Below are positions 2,922 through 60,900 of a stretch of 64,000 nucleotides of DNA, piece by piece; within the stretch, counting starts at the first letter, position 1, and every line of letters starts with the position of its first letter. Made by a program: the position numbers and the translations under genes. Under the pieces are notes generated by a model that was not told the DNA's origin, made no database searches, and saw only the letters and a list, made by a program, of their open reading frames with translations. Source of the stretch: Loxodes magnus (taxonomy: Eukaryota > Ciliophora > Karyorelictea > Loxodida > Loxodidae); the NCBI GenBank assembly GCA_946699065.1, contig CAMPDV010002116.1, forward strand, positions 35,219 through 99,218, written 5' to 3'.

Positions 2922-3291
2922 TGATATTATAAAATATACACACTAATATTGGGATTTTAGGAAAAGTTCTTCATTTAGAAAAATTGTAATGATTAGAGTA
3001 GAAATAAAAGAATAAAATGAAAGCTTAAATTATAACTAGGGAGTTAAGAAAACTTTTAAATTAAGTACTAATAACTACTAACTTGATTGTCTACTAGAAA
3101 TGTTTCAATACTTTAAATCAATTTAATAAAACAGCTTTAGATGCTTGATTCAAGGGATAAAAGCTTATTATCAAATTATTATTTTCAAATTTCCTTTTAT
3201 TAGGGTTCTTGGATAATAAGAAAGAGAATGAGATGGAATGTTTATATATCTTAGGAATTAAAATATAAGTCTAGTAAGTTAAGAATATCTA

Positions 3292-8299: not shown

Positions 8300-8800
8300 T
8301 TCTATATAATCTTTATATAGCTATAATTCTCTTTCTTATACCATAAATGTACCAGCAAAATTATGAAAAGGGTATATATCTTTAAAATCATCGTCAGTCT
8401 TAATAACTTTCTTCAGTTTTATTATTATAAATCATTTTCTCTTCAACTTTTATATCATTCTTATATACTTTCAATCTATTTCCTTTTATTGCTTAATAGA
8501 AGTTACTTAAGAGAATTAATTTTTGAATAAACACAAAATGAAAAGTTTTGCTTTATGAATTTTCTCAACTAAGAAAAAAGCTGTCAGATTAAATATTCTT
8601 AGCATTTCTTTAACTTCAAATCTTATTTCTGAGGATAATAAAATGTGTTTTAGGCATCATTGCTAGACTAATGCAAGTTCTGTTTTATTCAATTAAACTT
8701 GAAAATTTATTTTCTTAACTTATCTCTAGAATTTAAATTAGTTTAAATAAGTTCTTTCTAAGTTATTTTTACTAGGATGTAAAGCTCTACTTAAGCTAAA
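8300..8800 (-). CDS. Conserved hypothetical protein, left copy
   Basis: A minus-strand frame (MMPKTHFIILRNKI... FYQAIKGNRL) aligns residue by residue with the plus-strand frame near 51040-51300 (FIRNKI... FYQAQKGNHI). Conservation of the same frame in two diverged arms is the main evidence that it is coding. It lies between the RING-Kelch gene and the receptor in both arms. I do not recognise the family, and the boundaries are uncertain. Confidence 0.3.
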
Positions 8801-8881
8801 ATTATAAAATTTAAAGTTTTTAACTTAATTTTCCTTTTATTATTAATAATTCTTTACTTTAATTACGCATCGATGTATTTA

Positions 8882-10539: not shown

Positions 10540-10764
10540 ATGACCTTTAAGCTTATTTATATAAATAGACTTCTCTTTTAACTTTATCTTTACCTTTCTT
10601 TGTACTCCTTCTTTTTCCACTCTTCTAAATACTTAAAATCTTAAAATCTTACTATCAACACTAGCTTGCATTAAGTAAAGCGAGCATATGATTTCATGAC
10701 TATACAAAGTTACGATCTTTTATATTTTTCAGTCTTATTAGTTGGAAGTTTAGAGTAATAAGAA
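10540..10764. promoter_or_regulatory. Short divergent intergenic region
   Basis: About 220 bp separating the starts of two divergently transcribed Kelch genes, mirrored at about 48880-49040 in the right arm. Its position makes it the likely shared promoter. No specific element can be named. Confidence 0.35.
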
Positions 10765-13324
10765 ATGCATTTACTGAAGAAAGAGGAAAATTAGATTTGT
10801 TGATGTATGTTAAAGCTAATATCTGATATTGGGGATGTAAAAATGAATGAAAAAGGTAACTCTGATTGAAGAAAAATTTAAAGAAAATTCTATTTCTTTG
10901 AAGCGAAAAATTCCCTAAATGATATAAAAAAGGAAATAAGCAAATAAATAAAGAATCTAAGAGATAGAAAGGACATTTAATACATGCCTTGCACAAAACT
11001 ACATAATTTACTGAAGCAAAGAATAATCTCTTTTTAAGCTAGAAATCAGAAAATATTTAGTGAAATGAATAGAAACTAAGTTTCAAAAAATGAAGTCAAA
11101 AGACAGCAAAATGACAGGAGAGCAGGGTTTAAAAAATTTAATAAGATTTGCTTATATTGGAAGACCTTTGAGTTAAAAGAAAGGCATAATATCCAAATAT
11201 TAAATTTGGAAAAACGAGATGATTTAAACAAATGAACAATTTATAAGGAAATATTTAAAGAGAAATAGTAAATATCTAAATAAATTCCAGCTATAAAACT
11301 GAAGATTAAAAGTGAAGACATTGTTAGCATAAATAATAGAATATATATTAGATATATAAAAGTAATAAAGCTAATTAAAGCTGAAAATAAGAAATTATAA
11401 CTAAAGAAGATCATAAAAGAAAAAAGAATAGAAAGATAATTAAGAATCTAAAATAATTAAAAGTGAGAACTAAAGATCTTTATTAATTATAATACACATC
11501 AATTATATATTTTTTACATTAATAGTTAGAAAAAGCTTAACAGTCAAGTGTAAGGATTTTATATCCTTTAATAGATGAATGCAATATTTTTTCCAATAAA
11601 TAAATTTTTTAAGTCAAGTAGATTGGATTTAAACTTTTGGAAGAAAGTACAAAATTGTTTAAAGAATTAGAATATAGCAAATATTTAATAGCTTTATTTA
11701 AATGAAAATTTATTTTCCTTTAATGAAAGTTTAAGATATTGAGGAGTATAATTAGTATTTAACTTTTATAAGCAACCGAAAATTAAGCTTATCTAAAATA
11801 AAAAATGCTTATTATGATTTTAAGGTTTTAAATTAAGTAGCTTAAAATGGAAGTTATAATCAAATTTATTCTAATTGAATAAATAATTACTAACAATTAT
11901 TTTTCTAAGGGTCGAAAAAAACTTTCAAAATGGTAAAATGAAACTAAAATTAAGCAAAAAACTAAAAGTAGGGATAGAAATAAATTAGCGTAGGCTTAGA
12001 ATATGTTTTAGTTTTGATTGAAAGCTTCTTAGTTAACATCCTAAAATTAAATTAAAAAAGAAAAATTTAAATAAAGAAGTGAGAAAAGAAGAATGTAGGT
12101 ATTGTTCATATCTTATTGCTTTCCTTTAACAATAAATTAACTTTACTAAAGGATTTATAGAAATGACTGAGGTAAACTTAAGTATATAAATTGAAATAAG
12201 AAACTAAGCTTTGAAGAGTTTATTGCTATATAAATAAAAAAATATTAAATGGATTTTATAAAATAAAGCCAAATATTAAAATTGTTTTCCTTAGGAAAAT
12301 CTTAAAAGCTTAAAATAGAAATAAAGGAAATCAAATTTTTTCTAAGTTTGGTATTGGAGTTACTAAATATGAAGTATGCTCTAACTTAGTTTCCTCTAGA
12401 AATTATAAGATTATTAGTGCAGTTTGATAAGACTCTGATAGAATTAGGCTTTATCAGGTAAATACAGATTTATTTGAAGAAGACTGAGTAGAAATAGAAG
12501 ATACTGATAGTGTTTTTACATAAATAGAATAATTTAAAGAGGAAAACTTAGCAATCTCAGGAGGAAAAAAATTAAATTAGAGCAGATTTACTATTAATTC
12601 CTAAAAGGGAAAGATACTAAAACTACAAATGTAGTACTAAAGGTATTTTCATAAGACTAATTTAAAAAAAAACTTAATTTTTATTGTTTCAGGAACAAAG
12701 TTCTAAAACTCTTTTGAAGAAAATGTAGTAGAATGCGAAGTTTTTAGTATGAAGAATGAATAATTTAGAGTGATTAAGTAGATATAAACTCCAGTTCAGA
12801 TTTTTGGATGCGATTAGGTAAATTAAATGTTGCATGTATTTGGAGGGTTCAACTTAAAGAAAGAAGAATATTAGAAATTAATTTAGATTTATGATGTGAT
12901 GACCAATGAGTGATTAGAGAGCTCAAATTACCTGACATAAAAGGCATCTACTTCTGCAATTTGGATTCCATGCATATTGTCATTTCTCATTTGAGGAAAT
13001 TGCAGCGATATTGAAACCTAAATTTTCGATCTGAAACAAATTAAAATCCAAGGATAAAAAATGAAGGAAGACTTAGCTACAATTAACCAGTACTAAGTGG
13101 ATAGCATGTATATTAGTATGTAAGAGAAAGCTATTTATTCATATATGATCTGAAAAGTGAAAAATGGAGAAAAGTTTGTGAATATTGAAAATTAAATGAG
13201 AACTAATAATAAAATAAATATAATAACTTTATTTAAATTTTTGATTTACTCAAATTATTTATATCCAGAAATAAAAACAATGAAAGGTAATTCTCTTATT
13301 TATCTTAGTTCTAATAAATTTTGA
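10765..13324 (+). CDS. Coiled-coil/Kelch protein, left copy
   Basis: The plus strand reads a long charged coiled-coil region (NSLNDIKKEISKQIKNL, ELKERHNIQILNLEKRDD) and then a Kelch-propeller C terminus. The clearest turns are LAISGGKK, IFIVSGTKF and LHVFGGFNLKKEEYQ followed by IYDVMTNEWLESSNY. The last part ends at TGA 13322-13324. Between about 11800 and 12300 the best frame changes, so unspliced tiny introns or frame breaks are present. The frame runs straight through 11556-11690, the place where the right arm is interrupted by the ubiquitin-ligase segment. The start at 10765 (MHLLKKEEN) is tentative. The role is probably protein binding; the partner is unknown. Confidence 0.55.
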
Positions 13325-13459
13325 CTTTATTTAAGAATAATTAAATTTAATAGTTTAAACAATCTAATTTTACTCTAATTACATTATTTTCCTTTGATAT
13401 TTCATATCTAACACTTTATACTTATAATATACATTTTTTATAAAATGATATTTTAAATT

Positions 13460-14326
13460 ATTATAAATAACTATTATTATTATTATTTTAACTAAATGTA
13501 AAATTAAAGTTTGCATATCCTGGGTTTTCGACCAGGTTTCTGCTGACAAGTTTTTTTTCCGTGGTTGTTCTCCACGACCTTTTTTTAAAGTGGACGGCTA
13601 CCACGAAGGATTCTCTTAATTTCTTGTTCATAGTTTTTATTTATATATGCCTTACTCAGTAATACAAAGTTTGTTTAAGTTTCTTCAGGTCCTTTATTCT
13701 TCATTGTACTTGAGTTATCTTCATTTCTTACAATGTCTTAGTAAATGATACCAAGATTAGCAGTACCAACAATTTTTATATCATTTTTTAATTTCTATTT
13801 TTAAAAAACTTTTTTCTCCAGCATCTCAATTCTTTTGTTTATGTTTGTATCATTTTTTTCTTAATTTCACTTTTCTTAATGTTGTATTTTGTTCTAATCT
13901 TCTTCTATGATCATTCTTTGTGATTAATTGAAGTTAGTTTACGACATTTCATAAAGCTAATTTTCTGTTACTACTGAGTTTTTAATCAGTTAACTTTTGA
14001 GAATTAGCAATTCGTTATTTTAGTCTTCTATGTAATTCATTAACACCCGGATTTTTTCTCCTTGATTAAAAAATATCTCTTCATTTTTTGCAATTTTTTC
14101 TTTCATTTTTTCGATTTCGCTTTGGAGTAAATTGTTATTTTTGGTTTCAGGATTTTATTGCTCATTCAAACCAACCATTACTTTTCCCTCTGAAGACGAG
14201 CTAGATTCTCTATCCTGTCTTTGCTTTTTTAGCTCCTTGTTCGTCACTTGTTTTCTTATTTTTCTTTGTTATTTCTTAGAAAGACGAATGTTCTTCTCAA
14301 TTTTTTTTAATTATAAATAACTATTA
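13460..14326 (-). mobile_element. 833-bp retroposon-like insertion with 17-bp duplication
   Basis: Present only in the left arm. The right arm has one uninterrupted copy of the target at about 43790-43812. The insert 13477-14309 is flanked by a perfect 17-bp repeat ATTATAAATAACTATTA (13460-13476 and 14310-14326). Read on the minus strand its 3' end carries a short TAA-repeat tail after two small hairpins (GTCGTGG.../CCACGG and CCTGG...CCAGG). A long target-site duplication plus a simple 3' tail is the mark of target-primed retroposition. One open frame covers almost the whole insert and is annotated separately. Confidence 0.8.
13580..14301 (-). CDS. Coiled-coil ORF1-like protein of the insertion
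   Basis: About 240 codons in one frame with TAA/TAG as Gln. There is a basic N terminus (KKQQRKIRKQVTNKEL), a serine-rich linker, a long coiled coil (LLQSEIEKMKEKIAKNEE) and a C-terminal part beginning NDIKIVGTANLG. A segment resembling FVLLSKAYINKNYEQEI follows, then a basic tail. The order coiled coil then a small alpha/beta segment recalls LINE-1 ORF1p (Transposase_22: coiled coil, RRM, CTD), but the resemblance is weak. No initiator ATG is evident, so the copy may be 5' truncated, and no TGA stop is reached before the element ends. No reverse transcriptase is encoded. Confidence 0.5.
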
Positions 14327-15189
14327 CTAGGTACTTACATTTAGTAAGCCTAGCTTTTAATTTAAATTATTAATATATGCTAAACAATTCTAATTAAAGG
14401 TATTTAAATATCTTTATTAATTTTAACTAAACTATTAAATAAGCTATATAACTATAACTAAATTATAGGATATATTATTATATTTTGCTTTATTTTCTCA
14501 AATAATTTTATTAAGTTTTAAGATTATTAGTAATCAAAGAAAGTTTACTTTATATAAGACTGATTAAATAAATCTTTATAATGTTAAGAATAAAAATGTT
14601 TGGCTACTTAAGCAAATAAATCTATTTTAGATTTTATCTTTCTTTAGAATTTTAAACTTTATTTTTTTAATTTTTGCTTAGCAAATTTAAACTTTTTTAT
14701 CATAATTAGCTATTAAAATATAAGCTTTAGTATAATTTATTAGATCTTTCTTAAATTTAGATTCTATTGCTTTTAATTTTATATTCTAGAAGCAAAAGAT
14801 TAAATTAAAAAATGATTAAGACTTTGACAGATGTAACTTACATTGTTTTTAACTTCTAAATTTAATTTCTATTTTATGTATAAATCTTTCTTCTTTCTTC
14901 TTTCTTTAATTTCTATCTTTTTCATAAAATAAAGGTTTATAACAATTAGTACAATTTTGATAAACATAATAATAGTAAAAGGAACAACAAAAATAAAAGA
15001 TATGAAACTAGTAATTTTCTATATAATAAGTTATTGATTTAGCTTTAAGTTGCTTTAGTATAATTTAAAAATATCAAATTTTACTAAGTAAACACAATAA
15101 AATTTTATTTATTTATTTGATTTTTATTTAGGAGTCTTAAATTATTGGATTAAAATAGAGTTAGAGATCTTTTAGATTTAAAGGAAATC
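14327..15189. other. Intergenic region between convergent genes
   Basis: AT-rich spacer between the 3' end of the Kelch gene and the 3' end of the kinase/MORN gene, mirrored at 42932-43790. No gene recognised. Confidence 0.45.
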
Positions 15190-18100
15190 TCATTTTAGAT
15201 CAAAGTAAAACTTTAGAATTTTTTTGTTTTTCTCAAACCAAAATTCCATTATAGTCTTACTTAAAACTTGTAGAGGATTATTTGTTTCTAAAGTGAAAAT
15301 TGGTCCTCCAAGAGGGGTTCAGTATTCCAATTTTACTAAAATTTGATTATTCAATGATAGTACCTGATATTTTTTTATTTCAAAAGGAAATTCGTTCAAA
15401 CTTTCGAAATTCAACTCAAATTTTTCAGTTTATTATCTCCATCCCTAATAATAATAATTTTCTAATTCATTATGAGGAAAGTTTATCTTAATTCCAGTGT
15501 GATATTTTCAGAAATTGTACATATTAGTAAAATTTTATTATAGCAACAGTTGATTATCACTTGCTATTTAAGTTTCATCATTTTTTCTCTTAAGATTTTA
15601 CTTTAATTCTTCAATTTACTACCTTTAATTTCTTTATAAATTGGGATTTTGCATGACTATATCAAACTTAACTTTCTGCTGTTCGAAATTTGATAGTCAT
15701 TCAGGTATTTTCTACTCATATTTGTTATAATATTCAGTACTTCACTGTTCTTATAGTTTAAGCTCTTAATAAGAATCAAAAGTTTATAAGAAGATACTGT
15801 TTCAGTTAAACCTAAATAGAATTACTTAAACTTGCTTTTCTTTTTGGTAAGTTTACTCTTTTTATATTAGGCTTCAAATATTATTTTAGTCAAGTGGTAT
15901 TAAGATATTTCTTTCTGAGCTATATATGTAAAGAACCATATTGATGAGCCAAAGAATTGCAAATAACAAAAGTATTTCATATGATTTCTAATGCGGTTCA
16001 GAGCTTTAAAATTTGCTTTCATTTTATTTATCATTATTTTTCTCTCTTACTTAGCTTTATTTCTGATTTTATTATTATTTTTCCTGTTTTTAATCTACTT
16101 GCTTATCTTTTTACTCTTGCTCTTCTTTTTTTTCTTCTTCTCTTTCAGGATCTTCTCTTTTCCTTTCTTCAGCCTAACTTGGAGGTTGGTCTTACTAAAT
16201 TAGTTATTTTTAATCTAAGTTTTTAGCGTCTTTTTCTACTTAAATTTGAATAAATTTATCTTTTTTAATTTGTATTCTTCCATGATAAAATCTTCCTTCA
16301 TAATATCCCTTTTTTAAATGATACATTCTTCCATTTCCATGAGCATTATAAAACTAATCTATCTATCCTATATAAACTAAATCTTTTTCTATCTCTACTT
16401 ATTAAACAAAACGCTTAGAATCCTTTATAGCAATATTTGTATTCAAACGATTCGTATGATTAAATATTAATTGAGTTAAGTTGTCATTTTCAAAAGTCAT
16501 TTCAGGAATTTCGATATCTGAAATTAAGTCTTATGATTAAATATTTTACTTTTTTTCCGTTAATAACTATTCATCATATAGCTTATTATATTTAAAAATC
16601 GCATTTTATCTTACAATTTAATTTTCTAAATCAATATAAGTTCCTTTTCCATGCATCATGGATTTATCAAATTCTCCTTCGTAATAATAGTTTTTTTTCA
16701 ATATTCTTCCATATCCTTTAAAGTTGTTATTCTTATCTATTTAGCCTACATAAGTTTTGCTTTTGTCACTTTTTTATTCTTAAAATTTTAAATTAGGATC
16801 TTAACATAAATTAATATCTTGCTAATATTATTAGATAAGACCAAAGTTAAACTTAAAGGGATGATTTGCTTCTTATAGTGCCAATAAAGGAACTTATTCG
16901 ATCAAATCTTAGCTCTATTATTTTTGATTGACCTTTTTTTATTTTTTTTGTATCTCTTATTACCTTTTATTTTGATAAAAGTCATTAATTTCGTTCTATT
17001 TTTTTAAGTCTCATTCGTGTGTGGTAATTTTATTTGTAGATTTTGAATATTAACTATTTTCCTATGTTTAGTTTTAACTACTCTACTGATTTTACGATTA
17101 AACGGATGAAGTTTACAATAATCCTCATGAATTGTTCTGGATTTAAGATTCTATATCACTCTCACTTTCTTCACAAAATTCTACTTAATTTTCTTGTTAA
17201 ACTTCTAACTAAAATAATTCTTTTCTTTCTAATTATTTTTACTCTAAAGCTTGCTTAATTTCTATGAAATCATATCTATCTTCTTCTTCTCATTGAAGTA
17301 AATGAAAAATAGTCCAATGTAAATTTTTACATTTTTGATCCTATAGATTATAATGTTAAATCTATTATCCTATTAAATCAAATAATTCTTTGCTTGTTTT
17401 ACTTTTTTAGTTTAGTTTTAAATTTTTAGCTCTCTAAAGTGTTGACAATTCAAGTAAAGTTATTCCTAACGAGAAAGCATCAGATTTATAAGGATCTATT
17501 TACGTATTCAAAACAATCTAAGGAGATTGATATCCTTCTGTGTAAATGCTCTTTTATTGAAATTAAAGATTAAGTTAAGGATCTGAAAAATCTAAATCTC
17601 CTATTTTTAGCCTTCAATTAGAATCTACAAAAATATTATTAGGTTTTATATCTTGATGGCAAATATTCTAACTTTAGAGAAACTCGAATCCTTCTATAAG
17701 AAACTACGTAAATCTTCAAATTTCATCTAAGGTAAAATAATTATTTAATTCCTTTTATCTTTTTATCAGTTTCTTAAGATCTGAATCACAATATTCCATT
17801 TCTATTCAATTTGTTAAAGCTTCTTCCTTCAAATTTCAGTCATAAACTTGACAGAAATATTCTTGATACTATTCTTTATGCTACTATAACAGTAGAAGCA
17901 ATTATTTTAATTAGGTTTATTACTACTCTGTTCTTATGAATTTTACTACTCTTCTTTATGATTCTATATTGCAAGCTTCTACTACTTTTACAGTTTTTCC
18001 TTCATCTTCAAAAATAGTACCTTTCAGCTCTAATTGAGGAACTAAATACTACAGATTTCATGTATCAAAATAATTTTAATTCTCATCAAATTAATGGAAA

Positions 18101-18804
18101 CGAACTTAAAACTTATCCACCATAAATACTTAAGCAGAAGAATCTTAATCTCTGTGATAAGCATAAAACTAAGCAATAACTTATTTCCATTTATGCTAAT
18201 TTTCCTCTAAAATGTCTTCTAATCTTTATGATTTCTGATAACTAACAGAAGAATCGTAAGAATATATTACTAAGGTTTACTATTTTAAACGAATTCAGTG
18301 AAGAACTTTATAATTGTCATCTAAAAAAATGAGGTATTTGATATTCTTTTGTATATTGTCTAAAGCTTATTTTATTTCTTACCAAAACTACTCTGTTTAG
18401 TCACTTTCAAGTAATAGTTTTATATTACTCTTATCTAATTAACTTTGCATATTAAGTTGTGAAAGTATTATCATCAATCTTTAAAACTCCTATGAATCTT
18501 AGTAAATAATTTAGAAAATTAGTTAAAGAGGGTCGAAGTTTTCTAATTCTTAAATGAATTATCCTTTTTTTATTTAATCTTTCAAAATCTCTTTACACTT
18601 ATCTATAACTTCTTTCTTAGAAACCTTTAGAAAACTTACTAAATCTTCTTCTTTTTTAAATTATTTTAATACCATAAAGAAAGAAGGACTCCAATCTTCT
18701 TCATTCTAATTTTAGCCTGTGTAATAAGGTTAATTTTATCAAATATCAAAAATAATCTCATTTTCATTATTTTAGTTTGACTCACTTATCTAAGCCATTT
18801 TCAT
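15190..18804 (-). CDS. Protein kinase with MORN-like repeats and TM segment, left copy
   Basis: Mirror of the gene at 39317-42931 with identical length (3615 nt, 1204 codons plus TGA at 15190-15192) and only scattered substitutions, one of them changing LDY to LDF after the metal-binding aspartate. See the right-arm entry for domains. The start is the upstream ATG of MKMAQISES. Near identity across the gene and its flanks suggests a recent duplication or ongoing gene conversion between the arms. Confidence 0.8.
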
Positions 18805-20056
18805 TTTTAATTAAGATAACTCTCTTAAGTCAAAAAATGGATCATTAAAAAAGAACTTTTTAAATTAAAAAAATGTTAAAAAGAAAAATAAGCAAAGAAT
18901 GCTTGGATTTTCAAACTAACTATACAGACTATTAGAGGAATTCCTACATTAAAAGATATATCAAATAATAAGAAATTATAGATTAAATTTAGTAAAATTG
19001 TGCTAAGTAAGAATCAAAATCAAAAGCTAATTAAAAATAAATCTTATTATATTTTAAACCTAATAAGAACCAGATTAACAGCTATTAAAAAATATTTAGT
19101 ATACTTATAAAACATCCAGCTATATTAAGTCAATCAGAGAATTTATATATAAGACAAAAGATATAAAGATAAAAAAGTAAAACACAATTATTCGATTCTG
19201 AGGAAAGAAGAAGATCTTTAAATATAATAATTAAAATAAAGAAAATCAAACAAAATTAGTGGGAAAGAGATTGAGATACACTTCAAAAATAAAATATTTC
19301 GTTTTATGAATTAAAATAAATAAATTTATCCAAAAGTATTACATTTGTTGGAAAAGTCATTTAACTAAGTAATTGAATCAATTTTTTATTTCAAAGTTCA
19401 AATAAACAAAGAATGGCAGCAGCAAGAATTTAGAAAATCTGATTATAACTCTAACCTTAGCTAGTTTCTAGTTGGTTAAAACATTTTGAAGAGAAAGTGT
19501 CTGAAAGATTATCCGACCTTGATAGGGCTTGAAGTCTATGAATATGGAGCATGATCTTATTATTCTTGGTCTTTTGTTTGCAGAAAATGATAAAAGAATA
19601 TTCTATAATGTTCAATAAGAGATCAATTAGATTTCAGCTATTCTCAAAATTTCTTTTTAAAGTAATTTAAAAGTTTAAAAATTCTATTCTAATTTTTATA
19701 AACCAATATTTAATCTTATTTTCTCAATTAGATAAACTTTAAAGAGATTTGACTTATTTTTTTAATGTTTATAACCTCTACTTTAGCCCCAATAGTTTAT
19801 AAACATAATTAAAATTAAAATTAATTATACATTAAGAAAGTAAGAGCATTTTTATCTTATAATTTTATAATAAAAAAGTTTATAATAAAGGAAGTTATTT
19901 TAGTTATATAATTGACATTACATTAATGAATCAAATATTTAAGAGATTATTTATTTAAAATTAGACCTGTAAATTATCTTTACTAAATTGCTCATAAAGT
20001 TAATTTTTTATAGATAATCTATATGATAAATTATTTTACTTAATGAAATAAATATG
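18805..20056. other. Intergenic region, inner arm
   Basis: AT-rich, mirrored at about 38061-39316. A short frame beginning at ATG 19412 (MAAARIQKIW) has no recognisable domain, and its start codon is not conserved in the other arm, where a 12-base block differs. I do not call a gene. Confidence 0.4.
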
Positions 20057-22165
20057 GTTATAGAGCGCGTAGCACCTCGTTAGCACGCAGCTCTTTCAAT
20101 ATTAATATTTGATAATAAAAAAATATTCTCATACTTCTTGTTAAAATTCTATTCGTCAACCGAGTCAGATTCTCCAAATGGGAAATCTGTTTATTTCAAA
20201 TTATTTTCAAATCTTTAATCAAATGCTCCAGTCTTCTTGATAATATAAAAATAAGAATTAGTAGTTAAATCATTAGCAAACCCGTAAACCAAACTTTCAT
20301 ACTGTTAGAACCCTCGAAAAAGTTAGGTTTTTTTCTTCTGAGCTCTTTCATCTTTCCTCGTGGTGGTTTCTAGTGCAAAATTACTCTCAATACAGTATGC
20401 ACTGAATCAGACTACCTACTAATACTCCCTACCACTACCTACATCCATATTTTTTATCAAAACAGCACATTAATTTATGCTTATTTGAGAAATATGAATA
20501 AAAATAAAATAGTTAATATCTAAATAAAAGATAATACAATAACAGATAAATAATAAAAAATTAAATAAATATATAAATAATTATTTTAATTTAATAGTAA
20601 TTAATAGCTTAAAAATACATTTCTATCTTATAAAATATATTAAAATTACATTTTATTTGATAAAATTAAATTTTTTAATTAAAATGAATAAATCATTTTA
20701 TTAGAAAACTGTAAAAGAAATAAAAAATTAAATAAAATGTAGCAAAACGATAAAATAATTAATTTATAGAAAGCTGATTTTTTGAAGTTAGTCTATTTTT
20801 AGCATGCTTAAAAGTAGAAAAATTTAATTTCTCATAAAAAATGTAAATGAGTGAAATTTGCTATGCTAAACTGTATGAAATTTTATTATAAAATATTTAT
20901 TTTTCAAGTATAATGAGATGCAAAAATAAGATAAAAAAATAAAGCTACTTAAAAATAATGGAAAAAGAAATATATAATATTGATATTTCAGAACTAATTA
21001 AAAAAATAACAAAATATATATAAAATTATAATAATTATTTACTTTCATTAAATCAAATAAATATTAAATATCTAACATTAATGATTATATTCTCATGACA
21101 TAACATTTTAAATTATAAAAAAAAGAATAAGGAATGTCTAAAAAATTTTAATCATAAGATATTAATTTTTTATCGTGTAAATTAATTTAAAATTTTGTCC
21201 TAATAATTAAATGCAATTATTCTTAAAGATAACTAAAAAGCCAATTATGAATATTTAAAAATAAAAAATTAATTATTATCATTTTAAGAAAGAAATAAAA
21301 ATTAAAAATCATTAAATATTTCATTTTTCCCTTCATAATTCTCTTAATTTTAGTATCATAACAAAGATAAAATCAAATGACAATAATTTAGATATTCGAT
21401 AAAAATTCAAGTCAAGAAATGCTTAAAAACTTCCTAAATCTCCTTTTTAATATGCAACCTCCTCTTTATTAGGTTTTTACTAATTTCCATCCAACATTTA
21501 AGATTCATTCATAGTAAGATGCATAATCTTCTATATCAGCAACCATTATTGTCATATAATAATGCTTTGATTTTTCTAAAATGTTTATATTTTTCCTTTA
21601 GCAGATCTAGTAAATTTTACAATTCTTAACATATATTTACTCTGTAATAGTTATAATTTTATTTTTAAGAGATTTTTAAACTCTAGAATCTTTTTATTTA
21701 ATTTATGAATTTTCAGAATCATTTTATTGTTTTTTTTTCACTTTTATATTCATTTTTATTATAAAAAAAGTAAAATAAATAATGTTAGTCGGGAGTATTA
21801 ATAGGTAATTTGCTATAGTGTAAACTGAATTGAGAGTAATTTCGCACTAGAAATCTCCACAGAGAAGAATGTACAACCTCAGAAGAAACAAACCTTACTT
21901 TTTCGACGGCTCTCGCTAGCAGCATGAAAGTTTGGCTGATAAGCTTGCTTATGACTTAATTACTAATTCTTATTTTGATTTTATCAAGAAGATTGTAGCA
22001 TTTGGTTCAAGATTTTAGAATAATTTTAAACATGCAGATTCCTCATTTGGAGAAGCTGAAGTGACTCAGTTGATGAATGGAATTTTAACAATAGATATGA
22101 GAAGATTTTTGTAATATTAAATATTTATATTGAAAGAGCTACACACCAACGAGAAGCTGCTTTGC
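20057..22165 (+). mobile_element. 2.1-kb element with ~380-bp terminal inverted repeats
   Basis: The left end (20057 to about 20445) matches the reverse complement of the right end (about 21785-22165) at roughly 75-80 percent by eye. Both ends carry a GC-richer terminal motif of about 35 bp (AGAGCGCGTAGCAC ... GCACGCAGCTCTTT), itself an imperfect palindrome. The ~1.3 kb interior is extremely AT-rich with no recognised gene. The same element lies in the other arm at about 35985-38065. Both terminal repeats retain the same coding-like segment, so the repeats contain a captured or ancestral gene fragment. The class is unknown. It resembles fold-back or Tlr-like germline elements of ciliates only in general plan. 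Confidence 0.65.
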
Positions 22166-22243
22166 TTTGACTAACTATTGGGACCTGGAATGAAATTATC
22201 TTCGATATTGGCCGATATCCCCCGTAAATCTGACTTGGTATGA
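21869..22243 (+). CDS. 124-codon ORF spanning element end, function unknown
   Basis: Starts MYNLRRNKPYFFDGSRQQ and ends at TGA 22241-22243 after ADIPRKSDLV. The central part (SYFDFIKKIVAFGSRF, VTQLMNGILTIDMRRF) recurs, diverged but in the same frame, in the opposite terminal repeat of the element (LTTNSYFYIIKKTGAF on the minus strand near 20300). The ORF crosses the outer edge of the terminal repeat. The copy in the right arm has an 8-bp deletion that breaks the frame. I do not recognise the family. Confidence 0.4.
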
Positions 22244-22329
22244 CAAGTGAGAACCGCTTTGTACTCCTAAGAGACGCAACCTGCCATAATACATTTTCAA
22301 GATGTATTTTTTATAGCATCATTGAACAG

Positions 22330-24342
22330 TTAAAATTCCAGTTAGCTTAATAATACTAGAGTCGCATTTATAAATTTTTATTATATTTAATGCATAGACA
22401 AAATTAATCTTTTTACTAAATGATGAAATCTTAATTTAAATTTCTATACTTTTTATAATTTTATTTAATTAAGAATTATAAAATTATAAAACATATTAGA
22501 TTAACAAAAATGCTTTTATATCATTTTTTATTTATGCTTAATATTCTGTCTTTAAAGCTAAAGTAAGATATTAAAAATTTATTTCATTTAAATTAAAAAT
22601 ATCTCTATTTTATTTAAAACAAAAAAGTAAAAATAGGAAATAGTAAGAAATTTCGAAACACCACTAAGAGGTATGAATATTTAAGTAAATAAGATTAATT
22701 ATTTAGTTAACAGATATAGATAAAAGGTAGAAAATATTAATGAAAAATTACAAATTATATATCATAAAATTATAATAAATAAAAAAGATCATTAGCTAAT
22801 TGGCAAGCTTTAATTTAAATTTCTATCTATTTTAATATTTTCGAAATAGCTTAATAATTATTATAGCTTTGATTAAATCATTATAAAATTTTTAATTATA
22901 AGACATTATTTTACTAATTATCAACTAATTACTTATAAAACTAACAATATTTGTTCTACTATATTTTTTATAATATTAATATTTGCTTTAAAATAATCAG
23001 TAAATATACTTAATAATCATAATTAATTAATTTAAAAAAAATTAATTAAAAATTTCCTTTTTTATTAAGTAAAAAAGGATGAAAATTTAAAGAAATTAAA
23101 ATATAAAAAATTCTTAATTTTTCACATTTAATCATAATAGAATATTTCACTATAATAAAAATTTAATTATTTTAAATTATTATTTAAACATAAAAAATCA
23201 CAATAGATATTTTGTTTAACAATTTCTCTTTTTTAGTTATAAACTAATTTTATCTCTTAAATATACTTTTTATTATAATTAGTATTGTAATTTTTAGGTA
23301 GTTTATTTTAATTATTGTCTATTTAACTAATATCTCATTATGCAATTGTTTTAAAGTGTTCTTTCTGAATTTTTTATTAAAAATTATCTTTAATTTTTTA
23401 TACAATTTTTTGCTAATTTCTTAATATTTTTTGCCTAATAATCCTCAAAGGCTTTTAAATTAATGGAGTTACTTAAGTTTTTCCATCAAAGCAATTTTTT
23501 ATTAAAAAGACTTTATTTGAGCAAATAATTTTTTTATAGAGATTATAAGTTTTTAAATAAGCGTCTTAACTTTTAACTGCTTGACTAAAAAGAAGTCATT
23601 TCAAATTTATATACCAAGATTCATTAAATATCGAATTCGATGTTTAGGATAAGCCTTAAAATAAAATTTCTACGATTAAGCAATTTAATTAGTTTTTTTC
23701 TTTTTAATACTGGAAAATTAGCTATTGAAATTATATTTTATCCGTATTCCGCTTTAGAAAAAAAAATTCCGTAAATAGTTTAATTATTTTATAGAAAAAT
23801 GCTTCATATAAAACAATATTTTGCATTAGCTATCTAATATTCATATACTTCTGTTAACCAATGTAGCTTGCTAATTTATTTGCTTCATATCTGATTTCCT
23901 AATTAACTAGAAAGTTTTTTTAATTAATTGGCATTTCATTAAAATTTAAATTAATTTTCTTTTCATTAGTTTTTCATTAATTATTTACTTTTTTTTAGTT
24001 GTTTTAACAATTAATTTTATCCCTTTAAAATTTTTGACTACTGTTCTTAATGATTTTATTATTTCCCCCAATTCCTAGATAATTTCAATTAAGTTATCTC
24101 CAAAATATCAAACATAAATTATTTTAGATAATTATGTAACTAAATCTATTCTTTTTTTCTTTAGTATATCTTACTATGGTGTAGTATTAAATTTTGCGCT
24201 TGTAGACCTATGATTTCTTTCTTGTAAATCCCTATTGCTATATTACTCTATTCATTTATTATTTATCAATAATAAATCTTGCTTCTTTTAATATGGAGGC
24301 GAGCTAGTGCCTTGAAAGACTTAGCAAGGAATATCTTTTGTA
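22330..24342. other. AT-rich loop region, nothing recognised
   Basis: Contains the inner end of the left inverted-repeat arm (about 22785) and then unique AT-rich DNA. No coding frame, RNA or repeat structure could be supported. Confidence 0.4.
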
Positions 24343-28490: not shown

Positions 28491-29836
28491 AGGTCTGGCT
28501 AGCTAGTAGGATAGAATGAATCAGATAATTTCCAAATAATTTAGATAGATATTTCTAATTGTCTCAGAAGCTTAAAGCTTTTAGATCTAAAATTAATACT
28601 TTAATAACTTTATATCTTTTTAGATATTTTAAGCCTATATTTCTAATGACAATAGAAGGATCCTTATAAATAAGAATTTAGAGGTTAAACACTTAAAAAC
28701 ACCTTCTAATGGTCTTTTAAGTGGGTAAGAGTAAATAAACGAAAAAGTAATAATTAAGTTCATATTAAGGAACAAAGAACTTTAAAAGAATACGAGTGCT
28801 ACCAAAACCCTTATAAGCAAAATATATTCATATAGTAAAAATTTAGGCTTTAAGTCAAGTCACTAATATAAATATATAATATTAGTTAAAATCTTAGATA
28901 TGTGCTTTATAGGTATTTATTTATATAAGCTGTGAGATATAAGGATATAGATAATATTTTATTTAGTTTGAGTTGCAAATTAAAGATTAAAGGATAGAAG
29001 GAATTAGTAGATAAAGAAAAATACGTACTTAGTATTAAAATAAGCCAGGTTTTTGGTCCCAAACTTAGCAAAAATTTTGATTAAAAGTAAATAAAGAAGG
29101 TTAGAGTCTGCTTAGGTTTAAAAAAATATTAAATAACCTATTAAGGTTAAGAGAGAGTTAAACGTATAAAAGGTCTATATAAATTAAAAGTTACTAAGTT
29201 ATATAATGAAAGAGTAAAATGAAAATAAATAAAATAAACATTTTAAATAAGCAAGTTATTATTTAATTTTAAGCCTGAGTAAAGAATTACCCTGAGCTTA
29301 TTAAATGCTATTATAATTTTAAATTCTGAGAAGTTCTTTTTATAACTTTTTATTAGATATATAAAATGGCTTCTAAGAAATAACAGAACTTTGAACAAAA
29401 CATTTAAACAGGAAAATTCTCTAAAAAATAAAAAAGTGAAATAATTACAATGAGTGAAAGTGAGAAATATGATTGATATGACGAACATTAACCACTTGGA
29501 AATACATAATTATAAAAACTTCCGACACAAACTCAAATAGAAATATTATCTAAGTCATTAAAATAGTTTATGTTTAAAAATAGATACCTCACTAATAAAG
29601 TAGAAAAATTAGAAAAACTAATAACTTCTTTACTTGAGAAACAATATTAATAATCATAAGAAATAGAAGACAAACTGGAACAAAGAATTCTTTAAATTTA
29701 ATAATAAATTCAGGTAACGCCATTTTCGATTTAACAGAATTAATCAGATCCTATGGAAATAGAAAATGAAGCCTCAAATTAAAATAAACAGTAAATGTTT
29801 ATTTAAAATAAGTAGTAAATTTAAATTAAGTAAGTG

Positions 29837-30689
29837 TTACAGGAATAATAGTAATAATATACTAAATTAAAGTGTTCGTATCTCCAGGGATTTTAAACCC
29901 CTTCAATACATACCTCCAGAGTTCGTTCCTTGAGGTTTAAAATAAAAGTTTGGGACTCCCAGTTTTTTTGGAGTTCTGGCACTCCCTTGAAAAAGCCTCC
30001 TTCTAAATATTCTTCCATCCTTGTCTACATAAATTCTTGAAAGTTCTCTCCAAATCTCTTCACTGTTTCTTCTCTGTTTATCCAAATATATCTTGCATCT
30101 CTTGTATGTGTGGAATCTTGATTTGCACAGGTAGCACAGCTTGACAATTCTTCTGGGAGGAGTTATCTCTAAGGGTTTTGTGTATTCTAGTTCCATTTTA
30201 TTTTCAGCTAAGATTTAAGGTTAAATTCTTTTTTCTCCCAAAAGTTTCACTTCGATTTCCTGTTTCATTAATCTTTCTTCATTGTTTTAACTTTTCTATA
30301 GTAATTTTTAGTTTTCTTTCTTTAATATTTAAACTTCTTCTTATAGGTTACGGATAGATTTCATAAGTTATTCTATTATTAGCTATTCATCATTTTTCTA
30401 TTTCTACATTATTTTTTAATTACCACTTTTCATGTAGTTGCTTGATCGTGGCTATGGGAGTAAAAAGTCTCGCTTGATTTAGTCAGCTTCTGTTGATTTA
30501 ATTTCTTATTCAATTTAAGATTATTTTTCTAAATTTGGGGGTTAAAGAGCCTAAGAAAATTATTATGTTATTAAAGAAGACGTGGTAAGAGAAGAATTAG
30601 AAGTCTCTGATTTTTTTTCCTTTTTCTATGGAGCTGGAAAAAAACCCTTCTTGAGACCTTCTGCCATTTTTTATTACAGGAATAATAGT
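29837..30689 (-). mobile_element. Nested ~820-bp Gag/ORF1-like element with 16-bp duplication
   Basis: A perfect 16-bp target-site duplication TTACAGGAATAATAGT occurs at 29837-29852 and 30674-30689. The element, read on the minus strand, has a 7-nt leader ATAAAAA before its ATG, one complete ORF and a ~50-nt 3' tail. The tail sequence (GGAGATACGAACACTTTAATTTA) resembles that of the left-arm insertion (GGATATGCAAACTTTAATTTTA). The exact duplication and intact ORF mark it as the youngest copy here. Confidence 0.85.
29903..30667 (-). CDS. Gag/ORF1-like protein: coiled coil plus CCHC zinc knuckle
   Basis: 254 codons from MAEGLKKGFFPAPQ to GTNSGGMY and TGA (29903-29905), with no internal TGA. Residues ~15-60 are Ser/Thr rich. 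Residues ~85-165 form a coiled coil (LIIEQLMKSIRNLQEEVQ). A zinc knuckle CYLCKSRFHTYKRC (C-x2-C-x4-H-x4-C) follows near residue 178, then a conserved C-terminal domain (EEIWRELSRIYVDKDGRI). This is the architecture of Gag or LINE ORF1 nucleic-acid chaperones. No polymerase or integrase is present, so the element probably depends on a partner enzyme encoded elsewhere, comparable in plan to mammalian HAL1. Its ATG and TGA lie only a few bases from the element ends. Confidence 0.8.
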
Positions 30690-31233
30690 TTAAAAGAAGA
30701 ATAAAATGCTACGTGTGCAATAAATAACACCAATGAAAATACTGCTACTAACTAAGCGAAATTTAAAGAAAGAATAAATAAGATATTTTTAGAAAACTAT
30801 TTAGGATATATCCAACATAAAGCGGAAAAATGTATAGAAAAAATTCTTTAATTCAAATCTTAATCCTTGGATAAATAATTAGGAACGCTAAGTGCAAGAC
30901 CAAAACTATTCAGAATATTAAAGGATGGTGCACTAATGAAATGCTACACCGCCTAACTAAGCCTAGTAGGAATTCAAGACAAACTAATAGAGACAAGCTG
31001 ATAGAATAGGTCAGATGGCTGACTACTAAGGCTTTAGCAAAGCTTTTTAACTTTTTAACTTTTTTTATATCAAAAGTCAACTAAAATATTAAGATAAAGA
31101 GAGCGCTATAATTATTATTTAATTCATTTTTATCTATTAGTAGCTTCTTTAAACAGTGAACTTAAAAGAGGGAGTAATAATTATAATCCTGAGTATTTTA
31201 TTTTATAAATAATAATAAATAAATAAATTTTAT

Positions 31234-31722
31234 TATAGAGCGCGTAGCACTCTCGTTGGTGCGCAGCTCTTTAAAAAAAAATGTTTCATACTGACAAGAA
31301 TGTTTGTTACTGATAAAATTATCAGATACTGATAAATCTTGTTCAATACTGATATAATTATTCAGTGCTGATAAAAATGTTCAATACTGATATAATTTTA
31401 GAATACTCGTAATCTTTAATACTTGCTGGAGGTCCAAGGACATGGCAGGATTGTGTCTCATTGCATCACCAAAGCAGAGGACGACATGTGTCAATTATGG
31501 GTACTTAAATTCCCCACCTCTGATGAAACTCGCAATATTATTTCTTTTTCGTCCCAGAATTAAAGCTAAACTAAGCCAGTGCCGAAGGTCTAAGAATCTT
31601 ATGTCTCGAGGTCAAGCCAAAGCAGAGGAAGACATAAAGTCGATTATGGGTACTTAACTTCCCCAACCTCTGATGAAGATGACCTTGCTGTTCACCTTCG
31701 AACAACTATGGCGGTTTTAAAA
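31234..31722 (+). mobile_element. ~490-bp small element with shared terminal hairpin motif
   Basis: Absent from the right direct-repeat copy (junction at about 58970). It begins with the ~35-bp motif AGAGCGCGTAGCAC...GCGCAGCTCTTT, also found at the ends of the 2.1-kb element. A cluster of ACTGATA-type repeats follows (31300-31400). An ATGGCAGG start shared with 35870 opens a frame at 31442. An imperfect duplication of ~65 bp occurs, with copies about 31469-31535 and 31618-31680 (CAAAGCAGAGGA...TCTGATGAA). It is probably a non-autonomous relative of the 2.1-kb element. The frame from 31442 (MAGLCLIASPKQR) has no recognised domain. Confidence 0.5.
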
Positions 31723-31734
31723 AATAATATTTAT

Positions 31735-34540: not shown

Positions 34541-34544
34541 TAAA

Positions 34545-35351
34545 TTAAAAATTTTATGGATAATGGAATATTTCCTTAATAGGTCCATAACCCCCTGTAT
34601 TACCTTTTACAAGGTCTCGTACTCGCCGGTGTCTCCACCCAAGTTCACTTCCGAGCTTTCCGAATGGTCTTGGAGTTATCTTTTTTCTTCAAAGCTAACC
34701 ATCCGAGGAAGGATAAAAATTTGTAAGTTCTTTCCAAATATTTTTTCTTATTTACCAATTCCTCCTACACTTTTTTCATAAGTGGAATAAACTGCCGTAT
34801 ATATAACATTTTTTCTTGAAAAATTTTTCTGTCGTCATAGGTTATTCTTCTATTATCATTGGATCATTATTTCTTTTTAGGTCTTATTCCTCTAATTTTC
34901 CTAGTCTCTTTTTTATGTCCGTTATTTATTAAAATGCGTTTTCATACTTTAAGAATTCTGTTCCCATTTATTCATCAATTCTTACTATATCGCATTCTAT
35001 TTCTTAATATCTGTTGTTAATGTCCTCTTTTGTCACAAATTCATTATGCGGTCTCTCGCCCTCGACATGATCTTATAAGTCTTATTGTAAACTCATGACG
35101 TAATGTTCGAGGTTCTCTACCTTATCAATGTAATCAAAAATGATTTAAACAAGAGACTTTTTATCTTAGTTCATAAGTTGTTCGAAGGTGTAACTTTTTT
35201 TTGAAATCTTGGAAGGAAATTATTTTTCTTCTGAGATTTTACAATATTATTTATTTTTTGTCTTTGTTGGAGTTTGTTAGAGCTGGAAAGTTTGATCTAA
35301 GGAGCTACGAGAAGCCTTTTAGTCGAGAAAGCCTTTGTTCCATTCCGCCAT
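34545..35351 (-). mobile_element. Gag/ORF1-like element at the inverted-repeat junction, 3' truncated
   Basis: The ORF starts MAEWNKGFLDQKASRSSLDQ at 35351. It has a coiled coil (FDYIDKVENLEHYVMSLQQD), a degenerate knuckle CYIYGSLFHLWKKC (second Cys replaced by Tyr) and the family C-terminal domain IWKELTNFYPSSDGQLW...TPRPFGKLG. It reaches GNTGGYGP but meets no TGA before joining the direct-repeat block, so the 3' end is lost. Its 5' end abuts the first base of the right inverted-repeat arm, and its 3' end abuts the left direct-repeat block. It therefore sits exactly on the rearrangement junction. Confidence 0.72.
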
Positions 35352-42931: not shown

Positions 42932-43945
42932 GATTTCCTTTAAATCTAAAAGATCTCTAACTCTATTTTAATCCAATAATTTAAGACTCCTAAATAAAAA
43001 TCAAATAAATAAATAAAATTTTATTGTGTTTACTTAGTAAAATTTGATATTTTTAAATTATACTAAAGCAACTTAAAGCTAAATCAATAACTTATTATAT
43101 AGAAAATTACTAGTTTCATATCTTTTATTTTTGTTGTTCCTTTTACTATTATTATGTTTATCAAAATTGTACTAATTGTTATAAACCTTTATTTTATGAA
43201 AAAGATAGAAATTAAAGAAAGAAGAAAGAAGAAAGATTTATACATAAAATAGAAATTAAATTTAGAAGTTAAAAACAATGTAAGTTACATCTGTCAAAGT
43301 CTTAATCATTTTTTAATTTAATCTTTTGCTTCTAGAATATAAAATTAAAAGCAATAGAATCTAAATTTAAGAAAGATCTAATAAATTATACTAAAGCTTA
43401 TATTTTAATAGCTAATTATGATAAAAAAGTTTAAATTTGCTAAGCAAAAATTAAAAAAATAAAGTTTAAAATTCTAAAGAAAGATAAAATCTAAAATAGA
43501 TTTATTTGCTTAAGTAGCCAAACATTTTTATTCTTAACACTATAAAGATTTATTTAATCAGTCTTATATAAAGTAAACTTTCTTTGATTACTAATAATCT
43601 TAAAACTTAATAAGATTATTTGAGAAAATATAGCAAAATATAATAATATATCCTATAATTTAGTTATAGTTATATAGCTTATTTAATAGTTTAGTTAAAA
43701 TGAATAAAGATATTTAAATACCTTTAATTAGAATTGTTTAGCATATATTAATAATTTAAATTAAAAACTAGGCTTACTAAATGTAAGTACCTAGTAATAG
43801 CTATTTATAATAATTTCAAATATCATTTTATAAAAAATGTATATTATAAGTAAAAGTGTTAGATATGAAATATCAAAGGAGAATAATGTAATTAGAGTAA
43901 AATTAGATTGCTTAAACTATTAAATTTAATTATTCTTAAATAAAG
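42932..43945. other. Intergenic region between convergent genes, right arm
   Basis: AT-rich spacer without a recognised gene. It holds the empty target site (about 43790-43812) of the insertion found in the left arm. Confidence 0.45.
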
Positions 43946-57962: not shown

Positions 57963-60900
57963 TGGCTAGCTAGTAGGATAGAATGAATCAGATAATTTCC
58001 AAATAATTTAGATAGATATTTCTAATTGTCTCAGAAGCTTAAAGCTTTTATATCTAAAATTAATACTTTAATAACTTTATATCTTTTTAGATATTTTAAG
58101 CCTATATTTCTAATGACAATAGAAGGATCCTTATAAATAAGAATTTAGAGGTTAAACACTTAAAAACACCTTCTAATGGTCTTTTAAGTGGGAAAGAGTA
58201 AATAAATGAGGAAAAGTTATAATTAAGTTCATATTAAGGAACATAGAACTTTAATAGAATACGAGTGCTACAAAACCCTTATAAGCAAAATATATTCATA
58301 AAGTAAAAATTTAGGCTTTAAGTCGAGTCACTAATATAAACATATAATATTAGTTAAAATCTTAGATATGAGCTTTATAGTATTTATTTATATAAGCTGT
58401 GAGATATAAGGATATAGAAAATATTTTATTTAGTTTGAGTTGCAAATTAAAGATTAAAGGATAGAAGGAATTAGTATATAAAGAAAAATACGCACTTAGT
58501 ATTAAAATAAACCAGGTTTTTGGTCCCAAACTTAGCAACAATTTTGATTAAAAGTAAATAAAGAAGGTTAGAGTCTGCTTAGGTTTAAAAAAGTATTAAA
58601 TAACCTATTAAGGTTAAGAGAGAGTTAAACGTATAAAAGGTCTATATAAATTAAAAGTTACTAAGTTATATAATGAAAGAGTAAAATGAAAATAACTAAA
58701 ATAAACATTTAAATAAGCAAGTTATTATTTAATTTTAAGACAGAATAAAGAATTATCCTGAACTTATTCAATACTATTATAACTTTAAATTCTGAGAAGT
58801 TATTTTTACAACTTTTTATTATATCGAAAGTCAGCGAAAATATTAAGATAAAGAGCACACTATAATTACTATTTAATTCATTTTTATCTATTAGTAGCTT
58901 CTTTAAACAGTGAACTTAAAAGAGGGAGTGATAATTATAATTATAATCCTTATTAATTTATTTTATAATAAAATAAGCGAAAAAAATCTCACTTAAAAAA
59001 TAAGAATCTACATTTTTATTTTGCTTCAAATCAACCAGAAATTTAGTCTCTTGCATTTTCTTTCTTCCTTTCAAAGGTAAAAAATAAAGAGAATATATCT
59101 CCTTTAATTGATTTATTTTTTAACACTGATATTGATAGAAAAATTATTTATAAAACTTTGTTAAAATAACTCAATTAAATGGCAAAACTAAGGCATGTCC
59201 ACACATTTAAAGTTGACTTAGTTCTTTCTCTAAAAGTATGTTAAAGTTTAGCTTATTGATTATTATTAATCAACTTATCTATATAAGAGACTGATAAATA
59301 AGTATAAATCATTTTTTTAACTATAAAGATAAAATAAAATTTAAGATTGAGATACTTTAATGAAAGTTTATAAAAGTATTGCTTTGAGGATATCATTCGA
59401 ATGCAACTACCTCGGTTTTTATGTCAAATAGGTCTTCTAAAATCCTTTTAGTTTATCTGATCTCTTAAAGATAGCTCTCTTATTCCGGATTTGGACAAAT
59501 TAGATCCTCTTTTCTCCATTAGAAGGTATCTAATTCTAAACTGAATAAATTAAATCCATCGTATACTAAAGCTTTTTTTTTTGTTTCCTATATCTTGTAT
59601 TACTGGACTTTAGTTGCAAGTTCATCCTTCATATAATTTTCCGACTTCTTTAAAAGGTTCATTTTCGAAATTGTTAATATTTTCAACCTAAAACTCATAA
59701 GTAGCATCTAAGAGGAGGCCCAAAGAAGTAAACTTTGCTTTTGAATTCGAATAAACTTATTGCTGAGGCATTAGGTAACATACGTCCTAAGCATTTCCAT
59801 GATTATAATACGATATCAAAGACTTGTATAAATAAAATTTCCAGCCAAGCTTTCTGTAATTCCACCAAGAACGTAAATGCTATCTTCTCGCATAAAACAT
59901 CCGAAATTCTTGACCGCAATTGGAATATCTTCTATTTCTACAATTTGTTTTTCTGAAAAGTTGTAAGTCTCGCATTTTTATTGATCTGTCTACTAGTCTA
60001 TATTTCCAGAGATAATGTATAAGATATTTTATTACTTATCCAGAACCATTCCATGGTTGTTTCTGGGGTATTTTATTTAAGTTTCAAACTTTATTTAAAA
60101 GTCATTTGTATCTAAAATTTAAAGATTTCTTTCACAATTGCTATCTTTACCTCCAGATATGTAAAAAATATTATTCCCTGCATTATAAACAGAACTGAAC
60201 TCATCAATTTTGATTTGAGGAATATCTTTTGTTTGCTCATTTAATGTAATACTATCAGTAGTTATAAAATTATTTAGATTTTTTATAAAGCAAACAGTGC
60301 CAAAATTTTCATTGGTCTTCATTTTACTAGTATAATTTGTACTTGGTTGACTTTATTAAGTTTGAGGTCCAGTCTTAACCTCGTTTGGAATGGACCGAAA
60401 TGGCTAATCTTCTTTACTTTCTTCGATTTTATAAATGTTTTCTATTTTTTTAATTTCTTTTACAAAATCTTTACTAGATATTCGTTGCTTATATTCATAA
60501 ACAAAGCACTTTTCCAACAGTTCTTTTAATTCTGTACATTATTCTATTTGACCATTAAATGCGGTATGCTATCTTTAATCGACTACAAGGGATTAAACAT
60601 CTAGTTTACTCAATTTGGGCCATAGAAAAGTTTCTGTAATAATTTCAACTACAACACATGCTAATGCTCAAATATCAGATTCTTTATAGAATTTATGATT
60701 AAAGCATTCTGGTGCTCACCATTAAAAAGTACCTCTGCCTTAAGTACTGTAACTGATATTAGTACAAATAGCAATTCCAAAATCACAAATAGCAGGTTTA
60801 AAGTAATCATTTATCACAATATTGAGAGATTTAATATCTCTATGTATAATCTATTATTTATGTATCTCTTCTATTCCCTATCCAATCCTTCTGATAAGTT

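Follow-up and report, generated by a model that had tools for sequence, protein, structure and literature searches.

Nested zinc-knuckle elements of Loxodes magnus are very likely ORF1-only non-LTR retroposons that depend on a LINE enzyme

A short element, here called N, and the element A into which it has inserted, together with the elements C, D and E by their likeness to these two, are very likely non-LTR retroposons that encode just a presumed RNA-binding protein of ORF1/Gag type and would move with a LINE enzyme supplied in trans. We analysed N in a 64,000-nucleotide stretch of Loxodes magnus DNA (the window) and across the 705,730,643-base assembly. For N, dispersal, target site duplications of 13-21 bp, empty sites, (ATT)n junctions, a selected protein, a paired hairpin tail and 5' homology to a LINE are all observed. 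The term 'ORF1-only retroposon', used in the initial annotation of this DNA, suits these dispersed, unlinked copies with individual duplications and no reverse transcriptase.

In the window, N interrupts the coding region of A on the opposite strand (Table 1). The direct repeat TTACAGGAATAATAGT of 16 bp, located at 29837-29852 and 30674-30689 and 100% identical in its two copies, encloses an insert of 821 bp with a 254-aa frame (30667..29903), in agreement with the perfect duplication and the ~820-bp element with a single zinc-knuckle gene that were noted at the outset. The N protein consists of a basic N-terminus, a middle part that is coiled-coil-like by eye, a zinc-knuckle-spaced motif and a W-x-x-L...IY...G..(F/Y)RR motif. 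As also described initially, the insertion point lies just upstream of the knuckle of A, a C-x2-C-x3-H-x4-C motif at 30707-30745. Across N, base 29852 of A joins 30690-30691 and the frame resumes at 30692; the earlier claim of a host frame resuming past the duplication is thus correct for this continuation, but the frame contains one in-frame TGA in each half and is therefore open only with TGA read as Trp. The leader of the window copy, from the duplication to the ATG, measures 6 nt (4 nt if the duplication is extended across one mismatch), close to the ~7 nt first proposed for these elements, a value that does not extend to the 27 loci measured, where leaders range from 4 to 30 nt with a median of 10 nt. 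Among the inverted repeats of the region, the 25 longest listed include no terminal ones of N, and the 64-kb window contains no reverse transcriptase match.

The reading frames follow the karyorelict, Loxodes-type nuclear code, with TAA and TAG read as Gln and TGA as Trp inside genes. In the EEIWREL motif, the N3 subfamily has TGA at the position of the Trp of N1, and most of 150 scored reverse transcriptase matches contain 6-9 in-frame TGA codons. With ciliate code 6 alone, A and the LINEs would contain TGA stops, and TGA was therefore read as Trp.

Insertion is demonstrated by empty sites in duplicates and in other A copies, two such sites for N and a single one for each of A, B and C. The A copies at two other loci (L087 and L065) are uninterrupted across the N site and represent the state before insertion, without N. 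A direct duplicate within the window (57963-61762) matches both flanks of A and lacks A, the two flanks overlapping there by 22 bases around the imperfect duplication AACTTTTTATTAGATAT; it lacks B as well, which marks B as another insertion. Given these pre-insertion sites, the arrangement of N within A exceeds chance. Element C, which is flanked by a ~20-bp duplication, is missing from the inverted arm of a larger duplication (43792-43811).

Table 1 Features of the nested elements and their relatives in the window
Feature	Position	Strand	Remarks
Element N (N1 subfamily)	29853..30673	-	821 bp, inside A; limits from the 16-bp duplication and seven identical full-length copies elsewhere
N protein	29903..30667	-	254 aa and TGA stop
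N zinc-knuckle-spaced motif CYLCKSRFHTYKRC	30095..30136	-	C-x2-C-x4-H-x4-C
3' tail of N	29853..29902	-	hairpin directly past the stop, then ACACTTTAATTTAGTATATT(ATT)n
Left-hand copy of the N target site duplication	29837..29852	+	
Right-hand copy of the N target site duplication	30674..30689	+	single copy in A elements without N
Host element A, split by N	about 29361..31056	+	ATG 29366; 3' end (AACTTTTT)n; empty site 58803-58824; A copies in L087, L065
A protein, N-terminal part	29366..29851	+	162 aa
A protein, C-terminal part	30692..31054	+	knuckle CYVCNKQHQWKYC; frame end provisional
Left-hand copy of the A target site duplication AACTTTTTATTAGATAT	29344..29360	+	imperfect, placed by eye
Right-hand copy of the A target site duplication	31057..31070	+	imperfect, placed by eye
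Empty site for A	58803..58824	+	in direct segmental duplicate
Element C	13480..14309	-	diverged family, same architecture; start codon ATT, frame broken in window copy
Element D	34543..35351	-	diverged relative, one copy read; ATG 35351; second knuckle Cys lost
Element B	31216..31729	-	514-bp SINE-like repeat, no gene assigned; empty at 58962-58976

Copies of N are numerous and nearly identical. The best 40 of 4285 candidates of a DNA search, the window included, are all 99-100% identical over almost the entire element, and seven of seven further loci are identical to N across 821 bp with different flanks. At the protein level, the best 149 of 9460 candidates all begin at residue 1 or 6, extend to residue 254 and contain no inner TGA; the protein has 254 aa in subfamily N1 and 256 aa in N2 (eight loci read). 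The genome-wide count of copies, proposed in the initial annotation, gave exact matches to a 5' 23-mer in 546 places, to an N1/N2 tail 22-mer in 349 and to a tail core 23-mer in 464, with 0 for each control. Places without a listed partner were then read, and all of them belong to the N family (16/16 for the tail, 10/10 for the 5' end and 13/13 for the tail core), with 86-100% identity to the nearest N subfamily among these 39. Eight of the ten 5' places are a third subfamily, N3, whose tail differs from that of N1/N2; the comparison of 546 with 349 as a measure of truncation is confounded by this other tail and was dropped. The 5' end is reached in 27 of 29 tail-chosen places (L062 and L073 with inner changes), and the 5'-truncated copies among the 29 start at position 374 (L065) and at about position 110 (L116).

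The junctions of these copies carry a non-LTR signature, with variable-length duplications at dispersed copies, a simple-repeat 3' end and, in the window copy, neither LTRs nor terminal inverted repeats. A duplication score of at least 12 was reached in 27 of 30 rows versus 16 of 870 mismatched pairings. Recounted with one copy per locus, the duplications, whose extraction had been suggested from the outset, measure 13-21 bp in 26 of 27 usable loci out of 32 tried; L062, L065, L067, L068 and L073 were excluded from this recount, and three duplicate rows were set aside. By eye, the duplications tend to start with a TTAA- or TAAT-like sequence. Most 3' junctions consist of (ATT)n of variable length, present at one end only. 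In N2-type copies at six loci (L054, L056-L058, L074 and L076), (AAAT)n- or AAATT-like repeats replace ATT, as if two enzymes or start modes had copied one family. In L065 (with L092), an apparent chimera has the tail repeat of A fused to a 5'-truncated N that starts at position 374. No duplication was seen at this joint, and the outer flanks share just a 10-base AT run, which is suggestive of a template switch between the RNAs of A and N in one reverse transcription.

A scan with the LINE endonuclease-reverse transcriptase and a second reverse transcriptase matched one of 55 N loci, L006, and there N has inserted into an older reverse transcriptase. N lacks a polymerase, as first stated, and encodes ORF1 without ORF2, as a HAL1-type half-LINE does. 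The same scan matched 1 of 12 C loci (L040, past the tail of C) and none in L060, the locus of E. Neither syntenic copies devoid of duplications nor a reading frame within a larger host gene was found, since the copies are unlinked, have individual duplications and, in the window and in 54 of the 55 N loci, lie apart from any reverse transcriptase.

The elements are united by their proteins. N, D, A, C, E and L041e, a degraded copy in L041, have in common a C-terminal block in which a knuckle-spaced motif is followed by W-x-x-L, IY and G-x-(F/Y/W)-(R/K)-(R/K); for D, E (in L060) and L041e, one copy each was read. Of the ten block pairs that N, D, A, C and L041e form, eight exceed all 2000 shuffles, and the weaker pairs D-C and A-C are reached by 1 and 25 of 2000 shuffles, respectively. 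BLASTP connects N to E (E 1e-5) and to D (E 1e-9). Outside this block, the elements align poorly, and D, L041e and the C copy at L029 have lost knuckle cysteines. Pfam gave no match above curated cut-offs for these proteins, including no zinc-knuckle domain; PDB sequences contain no relative below E 0.25, and no relative was found among viral contigs.

The tails are likewise related in part. Those of N1, N3 and E are mutually related, as is the tail of C to that of N1 (0/1000 shuffles each); the pairs C-N3 (25/1000) and C-E (60/1000) are weak, and the tail of A matches none of the others. The tails of N1, N2, N3 and C fold into a common two-tier shape, consisting of a 3-4-pair outer stem, small internal loops and an inner hairpin. 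Between N2 and N3, each of the four outer pairs has changed, yet pairing is kept. Fold stability beats shuffles for N3 (0/200) and C (3/200) and is at shuffle level for the other tails, those of N1, N2, E and A (z -0.4 to -0.7; reached by 45 to 64 of 200).

An RVT_1 search for the LINEs of the same genome scored the best 150 of 3403 candidates. The commonest LINE consists of an ORF1-like frame that includes a CCHC knuckle of its own, followed by endonuclease and reverse transcriptase domains, and ends in a hairpin with ATTT-type repeats; inspection by eye of the ends of two full copies revealed no duplication. The first ~100 nt of N are homologous to the 5' end of this LINE (score 66, 0/500 shuffles in both L048 and L050, the two LINE copies on which the shared 5' end rests), and so are those of E, with scores of 85 and 68 (0/500 shuffles). 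The 5' ends of D and E are weakly alike (8/500 shuffles), and the same comparison found no likeness for A. An upstream stretch of the L041 type (L051) is without the exact shared 5' motif; a fourth stretch (L049), with other, older repeats and a truncated LINE copy, was dropped. A second reverse transcriptase clade (LINE2, the P0006 clade) ends in (TTTAA)n and includes dozens of places with identical score, suggesting a recent burst.

The homologous 5' ends would be expected if N were an internally deleted LINE, a true half-LINE like HAL1 that has lost ORF2 and retained ORF1, an origin that we consider unlikely. In its favour, the N-terminus of E is similar to what the first LINE codons in L048 encode, the knuckle block of N scores 47 against the LINE ORF1 knuckle, above the best of 2000 shuffles (45), and the whole N protein is weakly similar to LINE ORF1 (BLASTP E 7e-4). 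Yet the frame of LINE ORF1 exceeds that of N in size, with about 560 codons before the endonuclease in the stretch that was read, and lacks the W..L..IY..G motif past its knuckle; the blocks of the other four elements score against the LINE knuckle within the shuffle range (118 to 529 of 2000), and the tails of N and LINE differ. Because the body of the N protein is only weakly like LINE ORF1, despite ~100 nt of 5' sharing, a simple half-LINE origin is not established. HAL1 elements lack a reverse transcriptase and end in a poly(A) tail; they were reportedly described by Bao and Jurka in 2010 as 'half-L1' elements of mammals. N and HAL1 are alike in having an ORF1-type gene without reverse transcriptase and probably in depending on the enzyme of another element, but HAL1 derives directly from L1, whereas for the body of the N protein such descent from the LINE ORF1 examined is not clear, and the 3' end of N is a hairpin with (ATT)n instead of poly(A). 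According to two papers that cite this description (PMC4859970, PMC4161310), HAL1 elements contain ORF1 coding sequence and are likely mobilised in trans by LINEs. The HAL1-like logic suggested in the initial annotation thus fits in its ORF1-only gene and probable dependence in trans, but the protein is only weakly like that of the LINE.

No LINE with the tail of N was found, the 39 of 39 places read, out of several hundred counted, being N copies; the search for a full-length, reverse transcriptase-bearing element with this tail, advised at the start, thus came back negative. The 3' ends of the L009, L041 and L042 types and of LINE2 differ from that of N, and an older LINE copy (L044) showed no clear tail. 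The sole hint comes from the L041 LINE, which matches the tail of N over a 12-mer that has one mismatch (CACTTTAAT-AA common to both); its score of 26 is reached by 0/1000 shuffles with N1 and 5/1000 with N3. Element B ends in the tail of the commonest LINE over its last ~73 nt, and this LINE therefore very probably moves other RNAs in trans. Because of the 5' end shared with the L009 type and this apparent activity on B, the L009/L041 group is the likeliest donor of the enzyme for N, a candidate to which we give about an even chance. Two LINE 3' ends (L009 and L041) are followed, within about 150 bases, by the start of an A-like gene. B also contains internal 19-bp and ~60-bp repeats, with further copies in L034, L060 and, in part, L002.

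The mobility of B, a 514-bp repeat with a LINE tail, also means that a protein is dispensable in principle in this genome, and N could move purely as a SINE-like RNA with an irrelevant protein. We regard this as improbable. The comparison of N2 with N3 over 255 codons gives dS 0.756, dN 0.249 and dN/dS 0.33, with 75.5 synonymous changes observed and about 42 expected from site numbers alone; N1 and N2, separated by just 15 changes, give a ratio of 0.35 and differ by a 6-nt indel that keeps the frame. These substitution patterns show purifying selection on the N protein, and one domain is conserved across elements that are otherwise poorly alignable. SINEs with a LINE tail are short, dispersed and mobilised in trans. 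N resembles them in the first two respects and probably in the third, and B belongs to this kind, but SINEs are non-coding, whereas N has a conserved gene of 254-256 aa and shares no tail with any LINE read.

The remaining alternatives carry little weight. A single short gene without polymerase could suggest that the copies stem from an ordinary zinc-knuckle gene of the host, as processed retrogenes or as duplicates, but this is very improbable, being contradicted by hundreds of copies with both ends fixed, by a fixed tail other than poly(A) and by insertions within other repeats. Least credible of all, despite the ciliate genome and the shortness of the element, is a non-autonomous DNA transposon or an internal eliminated sequence (IES), at odds with the variable duplications, the absence of terminal inverted repeats among the 25 longest listed, the (ATT)n restricted to one end and, for an IES, the presence of N in an assembly inferred to be macronuclear. 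According to a section heading of the Loxodes genome paper (PMC11441545), classical IESs were not detected.

For ORF1-only retroposons using a LINE enzyme in trans, the reading that we prefer, a plausible cycle can be outlined. N would be transcribed from an internal promoter in its first ~100 nt, and its protein may bind its own RNA with a cis preference and help to bring this RNA to a LINE endonuclease/reverse transcriptase supplied in trans. The LINE enzyme would nick a TTAA-like site and copy N RNA from the hairpin tail; we infer such target-primed reverse transcription from the junctions and from the A-N chimera in L065. Slippage during this copying could yield (ATT)n.

A more far-reaching version is possible, and we offer it tentatively. 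The elements may form a self-standing retroposon class, made of anciently diverged families in one ciliate, with a selected RNA-packaging protein (coiled coil, knuckle and W..L..IY..G domain) matched to a two-tier 3' hairpin and with a foreign LINE enzyme, and would not be recent deletion products of a LINE. In that case, the LINE may even have acquired its 5' end from these elements.

HeT-A encodes a Gag-like zinc-knuckle protein and has no reverse transcriptase of its own. N follows the same Gag-only logic, but it is dispersed, with duplications, inside other sequences. HeT-A sits in arrays at the chromosome ends of Drosophila telomeres (PMC10088271). N was not found in telomeric arrays; its sites include ones inside A, inside a LINE and at position 1607458 of a 1,785,343-base contig (C12). 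By analogy, N appears to work like HAL1 or HeT-A, and we claim membership in neither. The L. magnus LINEs presented in the genome paper (PMC11441545) are autonomous and 5-6 kb long, whereas N is short and without reverse transcriptase; the commonest LINE found here has both enzymatic domains and the 5' end that it shares with N.

Elements of this kind were not found described for Loxodes in a full-text literature search combining Loxodes and retrotransposon, and the genome paper (PMC11441545) does not mention nonautonomous, SINE or zinc in its main text. A search for ciliate non-LTR elements with a zinc-knuckle ORF1 returned no paper on ciliate elements, judged by title, and none was found with ORF1-only wording. 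In LINEs, the action of ORF1 on its own RNA is hard to separate from the recruitment of a foreign reverse transcriptase, as both genes are on one RNA. N seems to be a natural split of LINE genes, in which near-identical, evidently recent elements have the ORF1-type gene alone and under selection, and the question of cis action versus reverse transcriptase recruitment becomes testable in a LINE-rich ciliate genome that is already described. Such elements may also account for part of the L. magnus repeats reported as unclassified.

The assembly also shows further structural features. Reverse transcriptase matches recur every 2,532 bases in one contig (G000:C5131) and at the start of another (G000:C20), reflecting either a tandem array of LINE fragments or an assembly effect. 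The window also contains an inverted duplication of ~20 kb (3109-22789 versus 35350-56611), with parts 77 to 98% identical and C in a single arm. D lies at the junction of two unrelated duplicated blocks, with no duplication of its own seen, and may have participated in the rearrangement.
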